Assembly (NCBI RefSeq): GCF_037976325.1
Contig: NZ_CP150265.1
Coordinates: 5,203,501-5,267,500, forward strand
Direction of reading: 5' to 3'
Length of the DNA stretch: 64,000 nt
From: Paenibacillus sp. FSL K6-3182
GTDB lineage: Bacteria > Bacillota > Bacilli > Paenibacillales > Paenibacillaceae
Part shown: in pieces, positions 7,497-59,148 of the stretch
Layout of the letters: the number at the start of each line of letters is the position of its first letter
Numbering within the stretch: position 1 is the first letter of the stretch
Translations under genes and position numbers: made by a program
Notes under the pieces: generated by a model
What the model saw: the letters and a program-made list of their open reading frames with translations, nothing else
Told to the model about the DNA's origin: nothing
Databases searched by the model: none

Positions 7497-9113
7497 TTAG
7501 CTATGAATAGCAGCACTCCAGCCGAATGGGTACGCAGCCGAAATTTCTAACGGCAGCTTGCCTTGCGGCTTAAGATCACCTAACAATACTCTCGCAGCAG
7601 CAGCTAGCGCGAGTGGACGACACTCATACACTGCCATGTACGTTTTTACTTCCGGGTATAGCAATAGATCAAGCGGGTTCCGAACCGACACAGCTATCGT
7701 ACGCTCCGGTGCCAATTTTACGACCTCGCGTGCAATATCGCGCTCTACGGGATGCTTGGAAGCGTCGTAAGTGACAACGACGATTTGTGAGAATGTTTCC
7801 AAATCAGCGAGTGGATGATCATCATCCATTTGACGCTCGACGATATTAGCTCCATACTCTCCAAGAAAGTGACCTAATGAGCCGTCACCTGAAAGCATTT
7901 CGTCAGCCACCGAAACAGGGACAATTTTGGGCCACAATACGAGCGTGCTTTTCTCGCGGCTTAATGGCAGCAATGGCCCATCGTCTTTTACTAATGTAAC
8001 TGAAGCCTCGCTCCATTTAATTGCAACAGCTCGATTTACTTCCGTACCAATTTCCCACTCCACTTGTGACCACGGCAGCAATGGCTCCTCAAGCACAAGC
8101 TTCTCCTTAAGTGTCATGATCCGATTAAGCGCCTCGTTAATACGAGCTTCTGCAAGCTCACCGTTCTCAACAGCACGCACAACGGCTTCAAGGGCAGCCC
8201 ATTGTTTATCAAATGTATGGCTGATCAGCACCATATCGGCTCCCGCTTGCAGCGCTTTAATAGCGCCCTGCTCTGGACCATAGGTTTTATCAATCGCATC
8301 CATCTCTAAACAATCTGTCACAACAATCCCGTCATAACCAAGCTCTTTGCGCAGTAAACCCGTGATGACAGGCTCAGACAAAGTCGATGGCACGCCTGAT
8401 GGATCAAGCGCCGGCAAGCAAACATGTGCTGTCATAATGCAATCCGTGCCTGCTTCAATTGCAGCCAGGAACGGCTTCAACTCAATCGCGTCTAACCGAT
8501 CACGCCCATGCAGCAATATCGGCAGCGCATGATGGGAATCCACCGCCGTATCGCCATGCCCTGGAAAATGTTTAACAGTCGCTGCAACTCGTGCAGCTTG
8601 ATAGCCTGCTACTGCGGCTGCTCCGAGTTCCGCAACGACATCAGAGCGGTCGCTATACGAACGTACATTAATAACAGGATTATCCGGATTATTATTAACA
8701 TCAATACAAGGCGCATAATTCATCGTAACACCCAATTGACGAAGCTCTTCACCACATACAAATGCTGTCTCTCTAGCGCTCTCCTTATCGCCGGTTGCAC
8801 CAAGTGCCATGTTGCCCGGCATAAGTGTTACACCGTCAACTAGTCTTGCAACCATGCCGCCTTCTTGATCAATCGCTACGAATAGAGGCGGATTGCCAGC
8901 TTTTCTTGCGATGCTTTGAAGCTCGCCGCTAAGCTTGTGCACCTGCTTAGCATCCTTCACATTGCGGGAAAAATAGATCGTTCCGCCAATGCCGCTCGTT
9001 TCAATTAACTGCTTAATTTGCGCCGTTGGCTCAAAGCCATGAAAGCCAAATACAAATAATTGTCCAACCTTCTTCTTCAAGCTCCAGTTATCCCACTCAC
9101 GCGTTGTCGTCAA
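7497..9113 (-). CDS. nagZ: Beta-N-acetylhexosaminidase, glycoside hydrolase family 3
   Basis: NagZ-type enzyme of 538 residues that removes terminal beta-linked GlcNAc from chito-oligosaccharides or muropeptides. The N-terminal TIM barrel has the signature KHFPGHGDT at residues 181-189, followed by the acid/base loop histidine (DSHHALP), and the nucleophile Asp267 in VVTDCLEM. A C-terminal domain of about 200 residues follows. No signal peptide is present, so it acts in the cytoplasm on imported sugars. It is last in an operon with an ABC importer and YesM/YesN regulators. Translation starts at TTG 9113, preceded by a GGGGAAG site. Confidence 0.93.
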   Translation of the reverse strand: MTTTREWDNWSLKKKVGQLFVFGFHGFEPTAQIKQLIETSGIGGTIYFSRNVKDAKQVHKLSGELQSIARKAGNPPLFVAIDQEGGMVARLVDGVTLMPGNMALGATGDKESARETAFVCGEELRQLGVTMNYAPCIDVNNNPDNPVINVRSYSDRSDVVAELGAAAVAGYQAARVAATVKHFPGHGDTAVDSHHALPILLHGRDRLDAIELKPFLAAIEAGTDCIMTAHVCLPALDPSGVPSTLSEPVITGLLRKELGYDGIVVTDCLEMDAIDKTYGPEQGAIKALQAGADMVLISHTFDKQWAALEAVVRAVENGELAEARINEALNRIMTLKEKLVLEEPLLPWSQVEWEIGTEVNRAVAIKWSEASVTLVKDDGPLLPLSREKSTLVLWPKIVPVSVADEMLSGDGSLGHFLGEYGANIVERQMDDDHPLADLETFSQIVVVTYDASKHPVERDIAREVVKLAPERTIAVSVRNPLDLLLYPEVKTYMAVYECRPLALAAAARVLLGDLKPQGKLPLEISAAYPFGWSAAIHS

Positions 9114-44664: not shown

Positions 44665-44720
44665 CATAAAAACAAAAGCCACAGCGACTATCCCTAGTCG
44701 CTGTGGCTTTTGTTTTTATG
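44665..44720. terminator. Bidirectional terminator, 26-base perfect inverted repeat
   Basis: Arms at 44665-44690 and 44695-44720 are perfectly complementary (core GCCACAGCGACTA) around a four-base loop, with A/T runs at both ends. The stop codon of the minus-strand GT2 gene (44716-44718) lies in the right arm. It ends both fcl and the long seven-gene operon. Confidence 0.92.
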
Positions 44721-45822
44721 ATGCCCGCTTCTTTCCTTTTATTGCGCTCCCTTTTTTCCGTGGCTGGACACTCCCCTTACGCTTGCTCCGGCTGACAGCT
44801 CTCCTGCTCGATGCGCCTTTACTACTTTTTTTTCTTCGCATGGCGGTTGTTTTTTTTCCTAACCTTTTACGTCCGTTTCTTCTTAACGGCTTCGTTCTCC
44901 CTATGCTTGAAGCTGGTTTGGCAACTGGCAGATTAGCCTGATAATAGCTTGAAACCTCAGCAAAATACGAATTCAACACATTTTCAAGGCTCTGCTGGGA
45001 ATAATGGTTCGTTTCGATATTTTTTGCCCGAAGCTTATCGAACCAGCTTGTCACCCCTTGAACAAAACCGTCTGTTGCCTGCAAACGTCTCTCGCATACG
45101 TCCATATGAAGATTAAGCTCATCCTCCGTAGGCAGGAGCCCCATCTGAATCAGCTGATTGAATACAATTTTTTTCCCGATCATTTGTTGTTCCGCATTAT
45201 GCTTCGCGCCTATTTGCTCACTATGAATGCGGTAATGAAGCAGTACATCAGGTATATTCGTGATACGGGTTAATTGCGCCATTCTCGACCACAGCTCATA
45301 ATCCTCCGTATGAGGGCTTTGATAGTCATAGTAAAGCGAATAGCTCTTAACAACGGAGCTCCGCATCATGACCGTTGGATGATTTAGAGAGCAATAAAAC
45401 AAAAGCCCTGCCTTAATGTCCTCATGGTCGGTTGGATGCTTAACCCAAATATCGGTATGCATATATTTCATCGCTGTGCCGCAAAGGCCTATATCCGGGT
45501 ATTGATTCATAAGCTCAACCTGCCTAGCCAAACGATCAGGAAAAGCAAAATCATCACAATCCATTCTAGCAATATATTCGCCTTGAGCAAGAACAAGCCC
45601 CTTGTTTAGCGTGAAAATAAGTCCGTAGTTTGATCCATTGCTAAAGAAACGGATTCTTGTATCCGAGTAAGAGGCAATGATTGCGGCGCTCTGATCATTG
45701 GAGCCGTCATCAATAATTAAAAACTCAAAATCTTGAAATGTCTGATTTAAAATGCTTTCGATTGCTTCGCGCAAAAACAATTCACCGTTATAAACCGGCA
45801 TCAAAACCGTTACCTTTGGCAC
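44716..45822 (-). CDS. GT2 glycosyltransferase with basic C-terminal tail
   Basis: About 368 residues. The N-terminal GT-A domain has VTVLMPVYNGELFLREAIESIL, DGSNDQS and the metal site ARMDCDDFA. The last 70 residues are extremely rich in Lys, Arg and Ser (for example RRNGRKRLGKK and SRSKRKGSVQPRKK), unlike ordinary GT2 enzymes. I start at GTG 45822 because AGAAGGAGGCGGG lies directly before it; the upstream ATG has no ribosome site. It is the last gene of the seven-gene operon and ends inside the terminator. The acceptor and sugar are unknown. Confidence 0.82.
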   Translation of the reverse strand: MPKVTVLMPVYNGELFLREAIESILNQTFQDFEFLIIDDGSNDQSAAIIASYSDTRIRFFSNGSNYGLIFTLNKGLVLAQGEYIARMDCDDFAFPDRLARQVELMNQYPDIGLCGTAMKYMHTDIWVKHPTDHEDIKAGLLFYCSLNHPTVMMRSSVVKSYSLYYDYQSPHTEDYELWSRMAQLTRITNIPDVLLHYRIHSEQIGAKHNAEQQMIGKKIVFNQLIQMGLLPTEDELNLHMDVCERRLQATDGFVQGVTSWFDKLRAKNIETNHYSQQSLENVLNSYFAEVSSYYQANLPVAKPASSIGRTKPLRRNGRKRLGKKTTAMRRKKSSKGASSRRAVSRSKRKGSVQPRKKGSAIKGKKRAS

Positions 45823-45931
45823 CTTCCCGCCTCCTTCTACACACTCACTACTATACAATGAATGATAGATGCAGATGGTTTGGACAAAAGCCTTAGGGCA
45901 TCTTCATCGTTCTTTCAACAATGTCGCTGTT

Positions 45932-53066: not shown

Positions 53067-54146
53067 TTGTCTCAAACCGTTGTCAAACGAAAACCAGCTT
53101 CGAATAAGCGGATGAAACGACAAAGTAAAAAAATAAATCGCACGTCCGCAAATACGCGTCGCAGAGCTTCTCGCAAGGGGAAGATGCTGCTGCGGTCAAA
53201 TCGAATAAACAAACGAGCAAGAGGATGGAAACGCGGCATCCTCGCCCGTAAAGTACCAGCTGCTCCAATAGCTCCTGCTGCTCCTGCTTCTACTCTTGTT
53301 GAACAGCCAAGCGACGGAGGGGCAGCGCCTATTTTAATACCGCTGACGGGTATTATTTTCAGCAAGGATCGAGCCCTCCAGCTGGATGCAGCCCTGCGAT
53401 CGCTTTACTTGCATGCCCTCGATATTTCCAATTTTCACATGAAGGTCCTTTACAAGACATCGAGCGATTTTTATGAATCACAATATGAACGACTCAAAAA
53501 CGAATACCCGTTGGTACAATTTATTAAAGAGGAGCAATTCAAAGAGCAGGTTATCGCTTCGATGGAACCCTATACCTATGTTCTATTCATCGTGGATGAT
53601 TGCTTGTTCGTTCGCGATTTCACGCTGCAGTCCGTCATGAACACATTAGCTGCGCACAACGATTTGATTGGCTTTTCCTTAAGACTGGGACCAAACATTC
53701 GTTACTGCTACACGATGAGTGCTGAACAGTCTATTCCATGGCATCACATTATCGAGTATGGCTATCGCAAGTTTGACTGGACATCGGCGCAGTATGAATT
53801 CGGCTATCCGATTGAAGTTTCCAGCTCGGTATACCGCACAACTCATCTTCTTCCTCATCTGAGAAACTTGGATTTCTCCAACCCCAATACGCTTGAAGGA
53901 TGTATGGCAGGACGTGCGCAGGAGCTGTCTGAGGGGCGCCAGTTTCTAGCATGCAGCGAAGTATCCTTAGCGTTTTGCAACCCGCTCAACGTCGTTCAGA
54001 ATGTCTATGCCAACCGCGCAGGAAGCAATAAGGAATACTCGCCGCAAGAGCTTGCTTTGCTATTTGAGAACGGTGATCGTATAAACGTAAACAAATATGC
54101 AAACTATATCCCAGCCGCATGCCACGAGCAGGTAGACATCTTTTAA
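53067..54146 (+). CDS. Glycosyltransferase-like protein with basic N-terminus
   Basis: Protein of 359 residues. The first about 60 residues are strongly basic (KRKPASNKRMKRQSKK, RTSANTRRRASRKGK), followed by an Ala/Pro linker. A GT-A-like domain begins near LIPLTGIIFSKDRALQLDAAL, with a likely DxD in YVLFIVDDCLF. The family is not clearly recognised; similarity to GT2-type nucleotide-sugar folds is general. TTG 53067 is preceded by AAGGAGGGATA. It is a single plus-strand gene with its own sigma-K-like promoter and a terminator. Confidence 0.75.
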   Translation: MSQTVVKRKPASNKRMKRQSKKINRTSANTRRRASRKGKMLLRSNRINKRARGWKRGILARKVPAAPIAPAAPASTLVEQPSDGGAAPILIPLTGIIFSKDRALQLDAALRSLYLHALDISNFHMKVLYKTSSDFYESQYERLKNEYPLVQFIKEEQFKEQVIASMEPYTYVLFIVDDCLFVRDFTLQSVMNTLAAHNDLIGFSLRLGPNIRYCYTMSAEQSIPWHHIIEYGYRKFDWTSAQYEFGYPIEVSSSVYRTTHLLPHLRNLDFSNPNTLEGCMAGRAQELSEGRQFLACSEVSLAFCNPLNVVQNVYANRAGSNKEYSPQELALLFENGDRINVNKYANYIPAACHEQVDIF

Positions 54147-54170
54147 TAGCTGTTCCTATCATTCATCCAC

Positions 54171-54217
54171 AAAAAAAACGTAAGCAGCTCGGAAAAATCC
54201 GAACCGCTTACGTTTTT
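54171..54217. terminator. Bidirectional terminator between convergent transferase genes
   Basis: AAAACGTAAGC and GCTTACGTTTT pair, with an inner TCGG/CCGA stem, and A and T runs on both sides. It separates the plus-strand basic-tailed transferase and the minus-strand GT6 operon. Confidence 0.88.
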
Positions 54218-54225
54218 TTATGCCG

Positions 54226-55305
54226 CTAGCTTCTCAAAAAGCTATGGCCGCCGAAGTTGTTTTTATCGCGAATTAATATTTTCATTGGAAACGGAAGCTG
54301 CTGGCCCTCCACGTAACCATAGGATGGATTCATCACTTTAGGAGACTTGTCGATTAAATATTTATTTAAATGCGATTCGTCATGCCAAATGGCATTGATC
54401 CCATTATTCATATCCGTTCTAATATTGTCATCCAGAACACGAATGAGATTCGTATAGTGCTCCGTTCGGCCGCCGTTCAACCCACCCATAAAGTAGTAGC
54501 TTCCTGCGCCCTCCGGAATATAGGCTAAGCTTTGTTGATTTTTCTCAAAATCAAGCTCGTGGCGCGCTTTATTGTAGAAGCCTGGATGCTGGACCGCAAC
54601 GATGCCCTCGTGAATAGGCAATATTTCTTCCCTTACAACATCAACGAATTGCATATTGGCATTAAAGAAAAATACAAAATCACATTCCTGCTGCAGCTGA
54701 TGCACCACGTTTCTAAACATCGCATATCGCAGCAGCGTATTGCCCGGCCATCCAAGATTATCCTGAGGAATCTTCAAAATGTTCGATCTCTCTTCATCAA
54801 CGATGTGGTCGGCATCTGTGAATACATAATAGTTTTTCTGGTAGCCCGGCAAGAAATAAGCTTCGGCGCTCCGATAAAAGTTTTCCCAGAAAATACTGTA
54901 TTTCCCTGTGCATATATAAAGAATCCCGATTCGAGATCCGGCTACACTCGCAATTTCTGCTTCACTCGGCATTTGTGTAGTCAGATAAGGGGATGCATTT
55001 GCGCTTTCTGGCTGTGCTTGCGAGAGGACAGCACCTTGATTGGTCATATAAGACTCTTGATGCGCATCCTCAAAACCTTTAGAATGCCCTTCTCTATACC
55101 CTTGCTCATAACCTGTGTGAAACGGTCCGCTTCTTTTTCTCCCTCTTGCACCGCTTCTCAACCCTTTTTTTAATGTTTTACCTCGCCGTTTCCCTTTTTT
55201 TACACCATATTTGTTTTTGCGGCTGCTTAATTTCCCGCCGGCTTTCAACGTTTTTTTTACGCTCGTTTTTTTAATAGCTGTACTTTTTTTTCGTTTCGTC
55301 AGCAT
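54226..55305 (-). CDS. GT6 (ABO blood-group-like) glycosyltransferase with basic GY-repeat N-terminus
   Basis: Protein of 359 residues. The first about 60 residues are Lys/Arg-rich, followed by GYEQGYREGHSKGF. The rest is a full GT6 domain: YYVFTDADH, WPGNTLLRYAMF, HPGFYNKARHELDFE, SYYFMGGLNGG and NGINAIWHDESHLNKYL, close to mammalian ABO and alpha-1,3-galactosyltransferases. The metal-binding DxD is replaced by NAN (FFFNANMQF), as known for other bacterial GT6 enzymes. GT6 enzymes add Gal or GalNAc alpha-1,3, often to fucosylated acceptors. AGGAGGAC precedes ATG 55305. Last of a four-gene operon. Confidence 0.93.
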   Translation of the reverse strand: MLTKRKKSTAIKKTSVKKTLKAGGKLSSRKNKYGVKKGKRRGKTLKKGLRSGARGRKRSGPFHTGYEQGYREGHSKGFEDAHQESYMTNQGAVLSQAQPESANASPYLTTQMPSEAEIASVAGSRIGILYICTGKYSIFWENFYRSAEAYFLPGYQKNYYVFTDADHIVDEERSNILKIPQDNLGWPGNTLLRYAMFRNVVHQLQQECDFVFFFNANMQFVDVVREEILPIHEGIVAVQHPGFYNKARHELDFEKNQQSLAYIPEGAGSYYFMGGLNGGRTEHYTNLIRVLDDNIRTDMNNGINAIWHDESHLNKYLIDKSPKVMNPSYGYVEGQQLPFPMKILIRDKNNFGGHSFLRS

Positions 55306-55329
55306 GCTGCCGTCCTCCTAAACTTGAAA

Positions 55330-56661
55330 TTATATATTATTAGCCTTAATGATCGGAGGAGCTACAATAGGGAAGCCTTCCGAATACTGGTTTTTGTCGG
55401 CCTGCGTTAAAGGACGAACATAACGCTGCTCCAGTCCCCATGCCTTATAGGCATATTTTGTCGTCATCCGGTGCAGCTTGCCCTGTATAATCTGGTACAT
55501 TTCGCCGTCTTGCGTTTTTACTAAACTGCCTTCAGCGAAATTGGTTGTGAGCGCCGATAATGCAGCTATTCTCTGCTGCAGCACTGCAATCGAAATGTCT
55601 CCTCCTATCGGCCAGTTCCATAAATCAAGCTGCGGCAATCTTACTGCATCCACATGCATTAAGTCTGAAGACCGCACGATATATCGATATCCATTTTCTA
55701 CCCAATAGACATTCGAATCGGTTCCTTTAACAACGATATGGCTAGGGTAAAAGTTTGTTCCTGTTCTCTTTTCATTAGGCGATGCCGAATTCATTACCGC
55801 CTCCAGCCTGCTGATCTGATCCCAGTCGCCCCATTTTTCACGAAAAAAAGCGTTATTAAGCAAGGAAGCATCCAGAAACGAACGCATCGTCACACTGCCA
55901 TAATGATGGATGAATGTATCCTCCGCAATTACTAGATCGAGACCAAGCAATTGTATCCGAAGATAAAAGTCTACATCCTCGCAGGTCCCAATGACATATC
56001 CCTCATCCATATACCCGACTCTTTGAAGCACCTCTCTGGATAAAAGCAAGCAAAAGCCCATTATGGCATTCGTTTTTCTCCATCGTACCGGGTTAATATG
56101 ATTGTAATTTTGGGCAAACTGCTGCATTTCTTTCATGTTTTTGTAGCTGACATCAATCTTTTGATCATTCGACAAATAATTGGTTACCGGACCAACAAGA
56201 CCAATCGATGGGTTGCTGTTCAAGCACGACAATAAATTCGACAGCCAGTTTTTCGTCACGATCGTATCATTGTTAAGAATGAGAATCGACGTACCTTTTG
56301 CCATCATCAGGCCTTGATTGACACCACCGGAAAAACCTAAGTTCTCTTGAAAAATTTTATAGCGCAATCGCCCTGCCCGCGACTTTAAATAGGCAGCCGT
56401 TCCGTCCGTTGAGCCATTATCAATAATGATGATTTCATAAGATTGCGGCGTATATTTATGAATGCTCTCTATACAATTTCGTAAATAGTTCAACTGGTTA
56501 TAGGTTGGAATAATAATGCTTGTGCCTTCAAAAGGCTGCTGATAGCTTGCTGCTCCACTCGCCTTGCCATCCCGATAACCAGCTGCATAGCTCGCTTGAA
56601 AGTTGGTTCGCTTTATTTTACGGACTGCTTTTATACGCCTGCGCGGATATCGCTTGCGCAT
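55330..56661 (-). CDS. GT2 glycosyltransferase with basic N-terminus and VYxV-repeat tail
   Basis: Protein of 443 residues. An Arg/Lys-rich start (MRKRYPRRRIKAVRKIKR) leads to AAGYRDGKASG. The GT2 domain follows (TSIIIPTYNQLNYLRNCIESI, NGSTDGTAAYL, ILNNDTIVTKNWL, CEDVDFYLR). The last about 110 residues contain two units of the pattern V-K-x-x-D-x-x-x-Y-x-V/I-x-x-G (VVKGTDSNVYWVENGYRYIV and LVKTQDGEMYQIIQGKLHRM), as in some surface-associated repeat proteins. GAGGTGA precedes the ATG. Sugar and acceptor are unknown. Confidence 0.84.
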   Translation of the reverse strand: MRKRYPRRRIKAVRKIKRTNFQASYAAGYRDGKASGAASYQQPFEGTSIIIPTYNQLNYLRNCIESIHKYTPQSYEIIIIDNGSTDGTAAYLKSRAGRLRYKIFQENLGFSGGVNQGLMMAKGTSILILNNDTIVTKNWLSNLLSCLNSNPSIGLVGPVTNYLSNDQKIDVSYKNMKEMQQFAQNYNHINPVRWRKTNAIMGFCLLLSREVLQRVGYMDEGYVIGTCEDVDFYLRIQLLGLDLVIAEDTFIHHYGSVTMRSFLDASLLNNAFFREKWGDWDQISRLEAVMNSASPNEKRTGTNFYPSHIVVKGTDSNVYWVENGYRYIVRSSDLMHVDAVRLPQLDLWNWPIGGDISIAVLQQRIAALSALTTNFAEGSLVKTQDGEMYQIIQGKLHRMTTKYAYKAWGLEQRYVRPLTQADKNQYSEGFPIVAPPIIKANNI

Positions 56662-56693
56662 CTCGATTCACCTCCCACGATCTTGTTTAGCTA

Positions 56694-57797
56694 TCATGAT
56701 GGAAAGACGATTTGAAGCAGCTGGCTGAGCCGCTTCTCGTAGGTATGCTGCTCCAGCGTTTTTATAAATCCTCTTAATGCGATTTGGTTCCTCTTTTGCT
56801 CGTCCTGCAGGTAATATGCAATTTTATCAGCCAGCTCATTTGGTGAAGAGTACGTTTCAAGCTCAGTTCCCGGTACATAAAAATCGCTTAAATCCTGACG
56901 AACATCTGTAAGCTGAAATGCTCCGGCAGCCGCAATTTCATACGTACGAGGGTTGATCGACAAGCCGGGAAGGTTGCGGCTATTTTTGTTATGCACCTTG
57001 TCGTCATGGGAACGATGAATATTGATGACAATCTTGGCGCCATTGTAATAGCTCGCTGCCTCTTCTGAGCTGATCCATGAAATGCGGATGCCTTTGCTTA
57101 GGCTTTTGTAACGCTTAAGCCTTTTCCAGAACAAGCCGATAATTCTTGTATCGCGCTGTGCTAGTGCAGGAGCAATTCGATCTATTAATCTGACTCTGTT
57201 ATGAAAGGCATTCCCAATAAAGCAAATATCGCTTTGATAATGAGAGGGTACATATTTAGGCTTATACACGGCTGGGTTAACTGCCAGCGGCAAATAATGA
57301 ACCTGACAGCCGAGCTGCCGATAGATTGGAATAGCAGCCAGCTCATGGGTAAATAACCATTCATACTGCGGGGCAATGACCGTTGTTACATCGGTTACAT
57401 AAGGCTCATCGACGAGCCATATTGCTGTTTTAACACCGATCGAACGAATGCCTTTGATTTGGTGGACTGGCACCTGAGTGCCATGCAGTACCAGCACTAA
57501 ATCCGGTCTTCTCCTGCTTGCCAGATCAATAAGATTATCCGATGGAGATGCGATGATCAGCTCGCTGACCATACCTCTGAGAGCATCCGTAACCGCCTGA
57601 TCCATATCTGGAAAAGGGCCTCTTAATCCCGCGCGAACATATAATACTCGCAGAGATCGAAGCACGCTTGCAGGCCGCGGTATTTTCTGAATTAACGCCT
57701 CACAGGTACCCACATGGTAACCATGTTTCCAGCCAGATTCGCGTCCCGCATCCCACTCGTTTGCTGCTGAATTGTTTATTTTCCGTTTCTGCTTCAG
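56694..57797 (-). CDS. CgeB-family glycosyltransferase (spore surface type)
   Basis: GT-B enzyme of about 367 residues related to CgeB/YkvP, spore outer-layer proteins of Bacillus. Family marks are DICFIGNAFHNRVRLI, INPRTYEIAAAGAFQLTD and the closing DFYVPGTELETYSSPNEL. I extend the start to CTG 57797, since the first GTG (57713) has no ribosome site while AAAGAGGTGA lies just ahead of the CTG. No ATG, GTG or TTG occurs in frame between the previous stop and 57713. The extension adds KQKRK and GRESGWKHGYHVG, the same basic-plus-GY module as its neighbours. It is 33 bases downstream of the GT4 gene. Confidence 0.82.
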   Translation of the reverse strand: MKQKRKINNSAANEWDAGRESGWKHGYHVGTCEALIQKIPRPASVLRSLRVLYVRAGLRGPFPDMDQAVTDALRGMVSELIIASPSDNLIDLASRRRPDLVLVLHGTQVPVHQIKGIRSIGVKTAIWLVDEPYVTDVTTVIAPQYEWLFTHELAAIPIYRQLGCQVHYLPLAVNPAVYKPKYVPSHYQSDICFIGNAFHNRVRLIDRIAPALAQRDTRIIGLFWKRLKRYKSLSKGIRISWISSEEAASYYNGAKIVINIHRSHDDKVHNKNSRNLPGLSINPRTYEIAAAGAFQLTDVRQDLSDFYVPGTELETYSSPNELADKIAYYLQDEQKRNQIALRGFIKTLEQHTYEKRLSQLLQIVFPS

Positions 57798-57830
57798 AAG
57801 TATCTCACCTCTTTCTGTAACGAATACTCT

Positions 57831-59009
57831 TTATACATTTCTAATTAGTGCCTGCTCCAACAAATCTATGCTTCGATCCCATTCCCACTTCTTTACCGTC
57901 TCGCTCCCGCCAGCTCTTAGGTGTTCGCGCAGAGACTTGTCTGCTATCAAACTTTGTACTGCATTCGCTGCTGCTCTAATGTCATTTGGAATGACCAAAC
58001 TATTATAATGATTGACCAGATATTCATCCGTCCCCGTTACATCAGCAACGACTGGAACTCCTCCGCAAGCCATCATCTCAAGTGGAGGATAGAGGAAGCT
58101 TTCAACCCTGCTCATTTTGAGCAAAATATCACAGCTAGAGTAAATATGCTTCATCGTTTCATAGGATACACTCTCAAAGAAGCGGTCACAGCGCCAAGAT
58201 GCAGCGGGACGCCCCGACGAGCTGACACACCAAACCTCACAGTTCAAATCCCGCACTGCCGTAAAAGCATCGCTCATTCCTTTGTAAGGAACGTTAATAG
58301 GGCCCTCCAGCAATACTCTAACCTTGCTGCTTTTTGGTGCAAGCGGCTCTGCCTCATACATAAGTGAGGTATCGAGTCCGTTAGGGATATAGATCGCTTG
58401 CTTATTAAACGTACGCTGCAGCCAGCGCTGCAGCCAGCCTGCCATCGTCAGAAACGTAAAATCATTCGTTTTGTACGTTTGATAGGCCAGCTTCGATTGC
58501 TCCGACGATGGCGAATAAAATCTGGATTCATCCGATTGAATGAAATAAAAGCGTTTCTTTGCTTCTATTCTTCTTGCAGCGCCGAGTGTAGCCCAAAAGG
58601 TCGCAATCACAATATCACGATCCGCAGGAGCGCGGGATTCTGTGACGATGGGCACCTCAACAGGATGCCAGCTAACCTGCGTATTTCCATCCATGGAAAC
58701 TAATACGACATCATAACCGCGCTGCTTCAAGCGGTTGGCATGCTGAAGAATAACCGCTACGCCACCGGAAATGGAGCATCCTGGGATGACGTATGCAATT
58801 TTCGGCTTACAGACGCCGCCTACTACAGCAATCCAGCGGCCGTCACGATAGCCGTCTTTCCATCCAGCTTTGTAGCCTTCTGACTGGCTGCTTATCGATC
58901 CTGCCCGCCAATCTTTCCTTCCATTTTTGACCAAGCTGCTTTTTCTACCAATTCTCCTTTTTGGCTTCAGCATCATCTTAGGTCGGACCTTAAGATTTTT
59001 GAATTTCAT
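57831..59009 (-). CDS. GT4 glycosyltransferase with basic GY-repeat N-terminus
   Basis: Protein of about 392 residues. The basic first half of the N-terminus (VRPKMMLKPKRRIGRKSS) is followed by SEGYKAGWKDGYRDGRW. Then comes a GT-B fold of family GT4 (IAYVIPGCSISGGVAVILQHANRL, IYIPNGLDTSL, and VESFLYPPLEMMACGGVPVVADVTGTDEYL with the donor-binding glutamate). I use ATG 59009, after GGAAGGA. It is first of the four-gene operon GT4-CgeB-GT2-GT6. I found no convincing sigma-K motif upstream. Confidence 0.88.
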   Translation of the reverse strand: MKFKNLKVRPKMMLKPKRRIGRKSSLVKNGRKDWRAGSISSQSEGYKAGWKDGYRDGRWIAVVGGVCKPKIAYVIPGCSISGGVAVILQHANRLKQRGYDVVLVSMDGNTQVSWHPVEVPIVTESRAPADRDIVIATFWATLGAARRIEAKKRFYFIQSDESRFYSPSSEQSKLAYQTYKTNDFTFLTMAGWLQRWLQRTFNKQAIYIPNGLDTSLMYEAEPLAPKSSKVRVLLEGPINVPYKGMSDAFTAVRDLNCEVWCVSSSGRPAASWRCDRFFESVSYETMKHIYSSCDILLKMSRVESFLYPPLEMMACGGVPVVADVTGTDEYLVNHYNSLVIPNDIRAAANAVQSLIADKSLREHLRAGGSETVKKWEWDRSIDLLEQALIRNV

Positions 59010-59148
59010 AATCTTTTTTCCTTCCCTTATATCTGTAATGGCGGTATACTTAGTGACTCTATGCATTCAACCCTATCTCATAATATGTTTGATCCTTTTT
59101 ACCGCCACGGCGTCTGTTACCATGAAGTTTCATCGCTCCTAATCGTTG

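Follow-up and report, generated by a model that had tools for sequence, protein, structure and literature searches.

A basic, glycine-repeat module shared by glycosyltransferases of several families in Paenibacillaceae, and its possible role as a docking tag in late sporulation

We analysed a 64,000-nucleotide stretch (the window; G000:C1:5203501-5267500) of the genome of Paenibacillus sp. FSL K6-3182, which is a single contig of 7.56 Mb. Four glycosyltransferase (GT) genes (window 54226-59009) encode enzymes of the GT4, CgeB-type, GT2 and GT6 families, and in each a lysine/arginine (K/R)-rich start is followed by GxxxG repeats bearing aromatic residues. The basic tail and the repeat (here GX3) together are termed the module. 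All four modules named in the original prediction, which was made from the DNA letters, are present. The prediction also described the enzymes as unrelated. Four families are indeed assigned by Pfam, but not four folds: we take GT2 and GT6 to be of the GT-A fold and GT4 and the CgeB-type enzyme to be of the GT-B fold. A K/R-rich start on each enzyme, as claimed, holds for GT4, GT2 and GT6; the CgeB-type tail is short, with fewer than 8 K/R in 20 residues. The catalytic domains of these enzymes, and of a fifth type found elsewhere (GT-D), have Pfam matches above cut-off. Coordinates are collected in Table 1.

The GT4 gene probably starts at ATG 59009; its mechanical open reading frame (ORF) begins at 59066. 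For the CgeB-type gene, the mechanical ORF starts at GTG 57713 and the module (LKQKRK...AGRESGWKHGYHVG) lies in frame just upstream, so the automatic start would cut the module off. The most likely true start is the CTG at 57797 (window 57795-57797, minus strand), which has a good ribosome site. The CTG and this site are kept in five loci (the window, L056, L058, L060 and L062), and ATG is used in L064 and L086. In the GT2 protein MRKRYPRRRIKAVRKIKR comes first and the repeat second. In GT6, a K/R tail of about 60 residues precedes GYEQGYREGHSKGFEDA.

Table 1. Features of the module-bearing cluster. Positions are those of the window unless prefixed L017, the locus just past it (G000:C1:5263501-5283500); "profile" is the profile of modules from other genera.
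Feature	Position	Strand	Support or remark
GT4-type glycosyltransferase with N-terminal module	57831..59009	-	Pfam PF00534 Glycos_transf_1, E 7e-14
GT4 basic tail	about 58900-59009	-	
GT4 GX3 repeat GYKAGWKDGYRDG	58840..58877	-	two overlapping pattern matches; alignment; profile E 1.3e-4
CgeB-type glycosyltransferase	56694..57797	-	DUF3880 and Glyco_trans_1_2 by Pfam
CgeB-type GX3 repeat AGRESGWKHGYHVG	57709..57749	-	mostly upstream of mechanical ORF start; DNA pattern; profile weak, E 0.1
GT2 glycosyltransferase with N-terminal module	55330..56661	-	Pfam PF00535, E 4e-31
GT2 basic tail	about 56605-56661	-	
GT2 GX3 repeat SYAAGYRDGKASG	56554..56592	-	not recovered by profile at E<=1
GT6 glycosyltransferase with N-terminal module	54226..55305	-	Pfam PF03414, E 1.7e-40, residues 126-342
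GT6 basic tail	about 55125-55305	-	
GT6 GX3 repeat GYEQGYREGHSKGFEDAHQE	55054..55113	-	pattern match; profile E 1.2e-4
Stand-alone module protein, 91 aa	L017:7805-8080		TTG start at 8048 plausible
Second tagged GT2	L017:9078-10478		
2212-aa WIAG-tail repeat protein	L017:10677-17315		NCBIfam WIAG-tail 93.3 bits, cut-off 33
Basic N-terminal tail without GX3, gene 53067-54146	53067..53252	+	basic but sequence-diverged in 3 orthologues
Basic C-terminal tail of GT2 44716-45858	44719..44901	-	basic in 4 orthologues; diverged outside nearest one
Conserved block with sigmaK-like -10 (CATATTATG) upstream of GT4 gene	59079..59108	-	GTGGC 16 bases earlier

Two further carriers were identified just past the window, a stand-alone module protein and a second tagged GT2. 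The stand-alone protein ends 9 residues beyond its last repeat glycine and lies at the end of an apparent operon with three genes of about 100 residues each (L017:8037-9013). For these three we found no convincing family match, and by BLASTP the first is unlike the other two. The same locus encodes a WIAG-tail protein built of SVTTSKL...GSVGTEQLADG repeats, and a gene for a YhcN/YlaJ sporulation lipoprotein is nearby.

The DNA pattern for G-aromatic-xx-G-aromatic-xx-G has four matches in the window (0.54 expected; 0 of 100 shuffles reach four), once in GT6, once in the CgeB-type gene and twice, overlapping, in GT4; GT2 has none. No ORF combining a basic tail with GX3 was found by regular expression in nine control loci of the same genome (150,006 bases). 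At least 10 K/R within 20 terminal residues occur in the products of genes 44716, 53067, 54226, 55330, 57831 and L017:4457, and in 1 of 146 control genes. The second GT2 (L017:9078) has 9 of 20, a value reached by 4 of the 146 controls. We also searched the whole genome with a profile (A6) of 32 of 56 listed modules, drawn solely from other genera and from stand-alone, CgeB or GT-D proteins; GT2 rows, three antisense rows and some further rows are left out of it. Besides the GT6, GT4 and CgeB-type matches in Table 1, it recovered the stand-alone protein (E 4e-14) and the second GT2 (E 6e-4). The next match, beyond the locus, has E 0.37, which is chance level.

Most sister genomes have the module; its absence from them, which the original prediction had named as an argument against a shared signal, is not borne out. 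Profile A2 matched 34 of 51 genomes of the genus, and profile A3 matched 207 of 245 genomes of the family, in 17 of 19 genera. A search across 299 Bacilli genomes gave 34 matches, 25 inside the family and 9 outside. Six of those nine were named by reading, and among these six there is no true module: L174, L177, L178 and L179 have FliH, L173 has a protein of G repeats and L168 one rich in Asn, Gln and Gly. The 80 relatives of the stand-alone protein considered, of 165, are from Paenibacillus, Cohnella, Thermobacillus or Paenibacillaceae, with the exception of two records titled Bacillus sp. FJAT. Paenibacillus polymyxa is among the species with a stand-alone gene. No literature on this module was found among open-access full texts, and we know of no other case of soluble glycosyltransferases of several families sharing one portable tag.

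We scanned for carriers in the window, L017, L056-L100, L131-L150 and L194-L259 (L180-L193 left out). The 344 ORFs matching the regular expression, a few of which are antisense noise, fall into catalytic clusters of GT2 (81), CgeB (81), GT-D (35, assigned by Pfam PF22882), GT4 (6), GT6 (5) and singletons (4), with 131 short ORFs. The module is thus present on five enzyme families, and the phenomenon is real and larger than first noted. Across the 53 genomes with fetched loci, which were chosen for having matches, 52 have a carrier by regular expression (the exception is G019), 49 an enzyme carrier, 51 a stand-alone gene and 48 both; this classification is rough, and in G033 and G037 a GT2 truncated by the end of the stretch was scored as short.

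The module is also detachable, as it occurs in stand-alone genes and its frame is open where GT6 has decayed or is missing. At the syntenic GT6 place of G024, an open module and a stop are followed by GT6 remains with stops and frame breaks. At that place in G004 the module is a clean stand-alone ORF, and the 34 kb searched there gave no match to GT6. The core GYEQGYREGHAKGFEDAHQE is preserved in both. Third codon positions of the module differ most (e.g., 28, 30 and 48 over 99 codons), a pattern that is suggestive only. Among the 120 GT6 homologues listed, of 1756 matches, seven carry the module; the GT6 of Paenibacillus sp. Soil787 is without it. Stand-alone copies have a strongly conserved core, and the N-terminal parts of 25 aligned stand-alone proteins are K/R-rich. 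With a module that is both kept across the family and detachable, the idea of a common signal for localisation or assembly is well supported.

For the stand-alone protein, AlphaFold2 (AF2) predicts coil for residues 1-56 and a single helix for residues 57-88. In the GT6 model, residues 1-107 have a predicted local distance difference test score (pLDDT) below 50 and 193 residues score 90 or more; as modelled, the module lies outside the enzyme fold. In 775 GxxxG units the first variable position (x1) is Tyr in 36% and Phe in 27% (63% together). FliH/YscL proteins are regulators of the flagellar and type III secretion ATPases. The module resembles them in its AxxxG(xxxG)mxxxA-type repeat, with Tyr/Phe at x1 and predicted helicity, and several of the longest module runs begin and end with Ala; Tyr and Phe together exceed 45% at x1 of FliH GxxxG (PMC2674601). 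A second likeness is to the deca-GX3 proteins Yae1 and Lto1, adaptors in which two different proteins pair through GX3 motifs (PMC4523923). Matches to Pfam Yae1_N (PF09811) are weak for both the stand-alone protein (E 0.011, 15.8 bits against a gathering cut-off of 27.5) and a GT-D carrier (E 0.0056, 16.8 bits). Unlike Yae1/Lto1, the module scores below the Pfam cut-off, is bacterial and is shorter, and no Fe-S role is implied.

Basic tails also occur apart from the repeat. The basic N-terminus without repeat of gene 53067-54146 and the basic C-terminal tail of the GT2 at 44716 are both present, as originally described. The former gene has no Pfam match and is called glycosyltransferase-like by reading. 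A further gene (L017:4457-5596), with no significant Pfam match and labelled GT8-like by reading, has a basic C-terminal tail. Orthologues at 3 loci for 53067, at 4 for 44716 and at 11 distinct ones for the GT8-like gene (L287 duplicates part of L056) keep a basic tail, with diverging sequence. Charge is thus conserved rather than sequence, and either terminus is possible. Tail and helix are separable, as several enzymes have the basic tail alone. Elsewhere in the same genome, a GT4 (L020:10286-11809) has a strongly basic C-terminal tail (13 of 20 K/R). Outside the family, glycosyltransferase-like genes with basic C-terminal tails and no GX3 lie near WIAG-tail genes (L290, L291 and L294). Given these, basic tails may be older than the GX3 helix.

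A sporulation context had been proposed from the start and is supported by sigmaK-like promoters, the neighbouring YhcN/YlaJ gene and the gene content of the cluster; the anionic forespore surface suggested with it as a target is conjectural. The pattern GTRDC-N17-CATANNNTR precedes the WIAG-tail gene in 21 of 21 loci (the host and 20 family genomes with WIAG), a count to be read knowing that the pattern was written after those sequences had been read. An earlier form, GTGDC-N15-18, fits 17 of 21, and the strict CATANNNTA fits 7, against 0.6 in shuffles. The -35 only partly resembles the printed sigmaK consensus (-35 KCACM, -10 GCATANNNTA; PMC3416734); a sigmaK promoter of Clostridioides difficile is given as CATATAAT and AC (PMC3789822). 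The N17 pattern has no match in the window and the nine controls and two in L017, one at the WIAG-tail gene and one at the small operon ending in the stand-alone gene. In 65 further cluster loci there are 38 matches, by reading 22 before WIAG-tail genes, 8 at the small-operon place and 8 at other sites. Owing to the relatedness of these loci the matches are not independent, and the small-operon genes were checked in L017 only. Upstream of the GT4 gene, CATANNNTR is found in 6 of 6 related loci, yet also on the opposite strand in 5 of 6, and this block is not an N17-pattern match.

The WIAG-tail gene and the module are linked in their occurrence. In the family, 203 genomes have both, 11 WIAG only, 4 the module only and 27 neither (counted by hand; Fisher p 4.6e-23, relatedness not corrected). 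WIAG-tail genes are found as well in 54 Bacilli genomes outside the family, none of which has a module match; the WIAG-tail protein thus does not need the module, and the idea of it as the module's obligate partner is weakened. At 10 loci from these 54 genomes, we saw no GX3 module on any glycosyltransferase; a loose GX3 flag falls on three ORFs, none of them glycosyltransferase-looking. Among the WIAG-tail proteins of L017 and L260-L279, 18 of 21 have (F/Y)(F/Y)VDN inside the first 22 residues, and this shared N-terminus is possibly a surface leader. In the L017 protein it is followed by an acidic, Glu/Gln-rich stretch, a possible partner for the basic tails.

In Bacillus subtilis, the cge, yfn and ytc genes serve the spore-surface polysaccharide. 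The cluster resembles these and the sps genes in having CgeB-type and nucleotide-sugar enzymes. B. subtilis spsM and spsIJKL are sugar genes under mother-cell sigmaK control that build the spore surface (PMC4191935). Unlike the B. subtilis sps/cge genes, the cluster carries a module of which no true instance was seen in the six out-of-family matches read.

We favour, at slightly better than even odds (about 0.52), a two-part docking tag that assembles glycosyltransferases in a surface complex of late sporulation, with the stand-alone protein as hub. One part of the tag would be an intrinsically disordered, fast-evolving basic tail. The other would be a short GX3 helix (GxxxG every four residues, with an aromatic residue after most glycines) of the FliH and Yae1/Lto1 dimer type. 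In the mother cell, late in sporulation, tagged enzymes of several families would pair via these helices with each other and with the stand-alone protein, acting as hub or coat subunit. The basic tails may anchor this complex to a spore-coat partner that is acidic or phosphorylated. The enzymes would thereby be held together where a surface polysaccharide, the WIAG-tail repeat protein or both are glycosylated. A more ambitious version is tentative and clearly the less probable: a docking code specific to Paenibacillaceae, with GX3 helices on at least five enzyme families, read by a stand-alone scaffold consisting of the module alone, forming an ordered enzyme assembly line at the spore surface. 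Matching helices would set the glycan, new enzymes would be recruited by acquiring the tag, and remnants reduced to the tag would persist as scaffold parts.

Several observations weigh against the docking tag. Profile A2 finds no match in 17 of 51 genus genomes and A3 none in 38 of 245 family genomes, and the GT2 at 55330 is missed by A6 across the whole genome. Confidence in the modelled module is low (mean pLDDT 65.5 for the stand-alone protein); of the module in GT6, a helix is modelled for residues 78-87 only, with pLDDT below 50. A sigmaK-like -10 stands directly before 7 of 127 stand-alone genes, with 9 on the other strand, which is chance level, and before 16 of 82 GT2 genes, with 13 on the other strand, so it is hardly strand-specific. 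To these are added the late wording of the N17 pattern, the family genomes with only one of WIAG and module, the 54 non-family WIAG genomes, and the basic tails, N- or C-terminal, on enzymes without GX3.

The main rival, which we consider unlikely though deserving of attention, is that the module is a coat building block, a structural spore-surface protein that is basic and disordered like CotG. Enzymes would be incorporated by carrying it, as a matter of architecture rather than recruitment. The stand-alone gene in 51 of the 52 genomes with a carrier fits this, as does the module that stays open where GT6 is decayed (G024) or missing (G004). The coat protein CotG is supercharged and disordered, and members of its family have properties rather than sequence in common (PMC9765600); the module is like CotG in high positive charge, presumable disorder (the stand-alone coil in AF2, at low confidence) and presumed location at the spore surface. 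Unlike CotG, however, the module is also fused to enzymes, and its presence on glycosyltransferases of several families suggests enzyme positioning. The host stand-alone gene has no tandem repeat at the DNA level, and it is not beside cotH in this genome, where two cotH genes lie at 1.95 and 2.31 Mb and the module at 5.27 Mb.

Less probable again is that two unrelated traits meet here without a common assembly, the basic Ser/Lys/Arg tails being substrates of CotH-type kinases or solubilising and the GX3 repeat serving homodimerisation only. The tails without GX3 at either end of proteins, including those of some out-of-family glycosyltransferases near WIAG-tail genes, and the two CotH genes of this genome are in keeping with that. 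The stand-alone module, its strongly conserved core and the restriction to a single locus in the genome are left unexplained by it, and we think it improbable.

It is very improbable that the stand-alone protein is FliH or an export regulator derived from it, despite weak NCBIfam FliH matches (best E 5e-4) and the FliH name on two of the eight database proteins found (P0001 and P0002). The best score is 19.6 bits where 260 would be required, and none of the four FliH models listed reached its cut-off. The protein has only 91 residues and is linked to glycosyltransferases; unlike FliH, the module has no FliH body, is preceded by a basic tail and is located on glycosyltransferases. No FliI-binding C-terminal domain is present in the host stand-alone protein, given its end so close to the last repeat. 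The four FliH-like out-of-family proteins read have 245-294 residues and no K/R-rich tail. We thus reject FliH identity, and the FliH naming of stand-alone entries is probably wrong. Chance low-complexity composition in a recently drifting locus, with which quickly diverging basic tails would agree, is rejected as next to impossible by the shuffles, control loci, terminal K/R counts and specificity of A6, and by matches in 17 of 19 genera.

Whatever its role, this short module occurs both on enzymes of five families and as its own gene, and has outlived one of its enzymes. If docking is true, it would explain how soluble mother-cell glycosyltransferases are retained at the spore surface, and it would assign a function to genes that are at present annotated as hypothetical or as FliH. 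The tag might then be used for placing enzymes on Paenibacillus spores.

More carriers were seen in other Paenibacillaceae (L066, L075 and L147), which between them have several genes of CgeB type, one GT-D gene and additional copies of the stand-alone module. In another locus, a gene for a collagen-like G-x-T-G repeat protein (L092:9687-10280) adjoins a GT-D module carrier. Given this neighbour, the tag may also serve a second kind of surface fibre.

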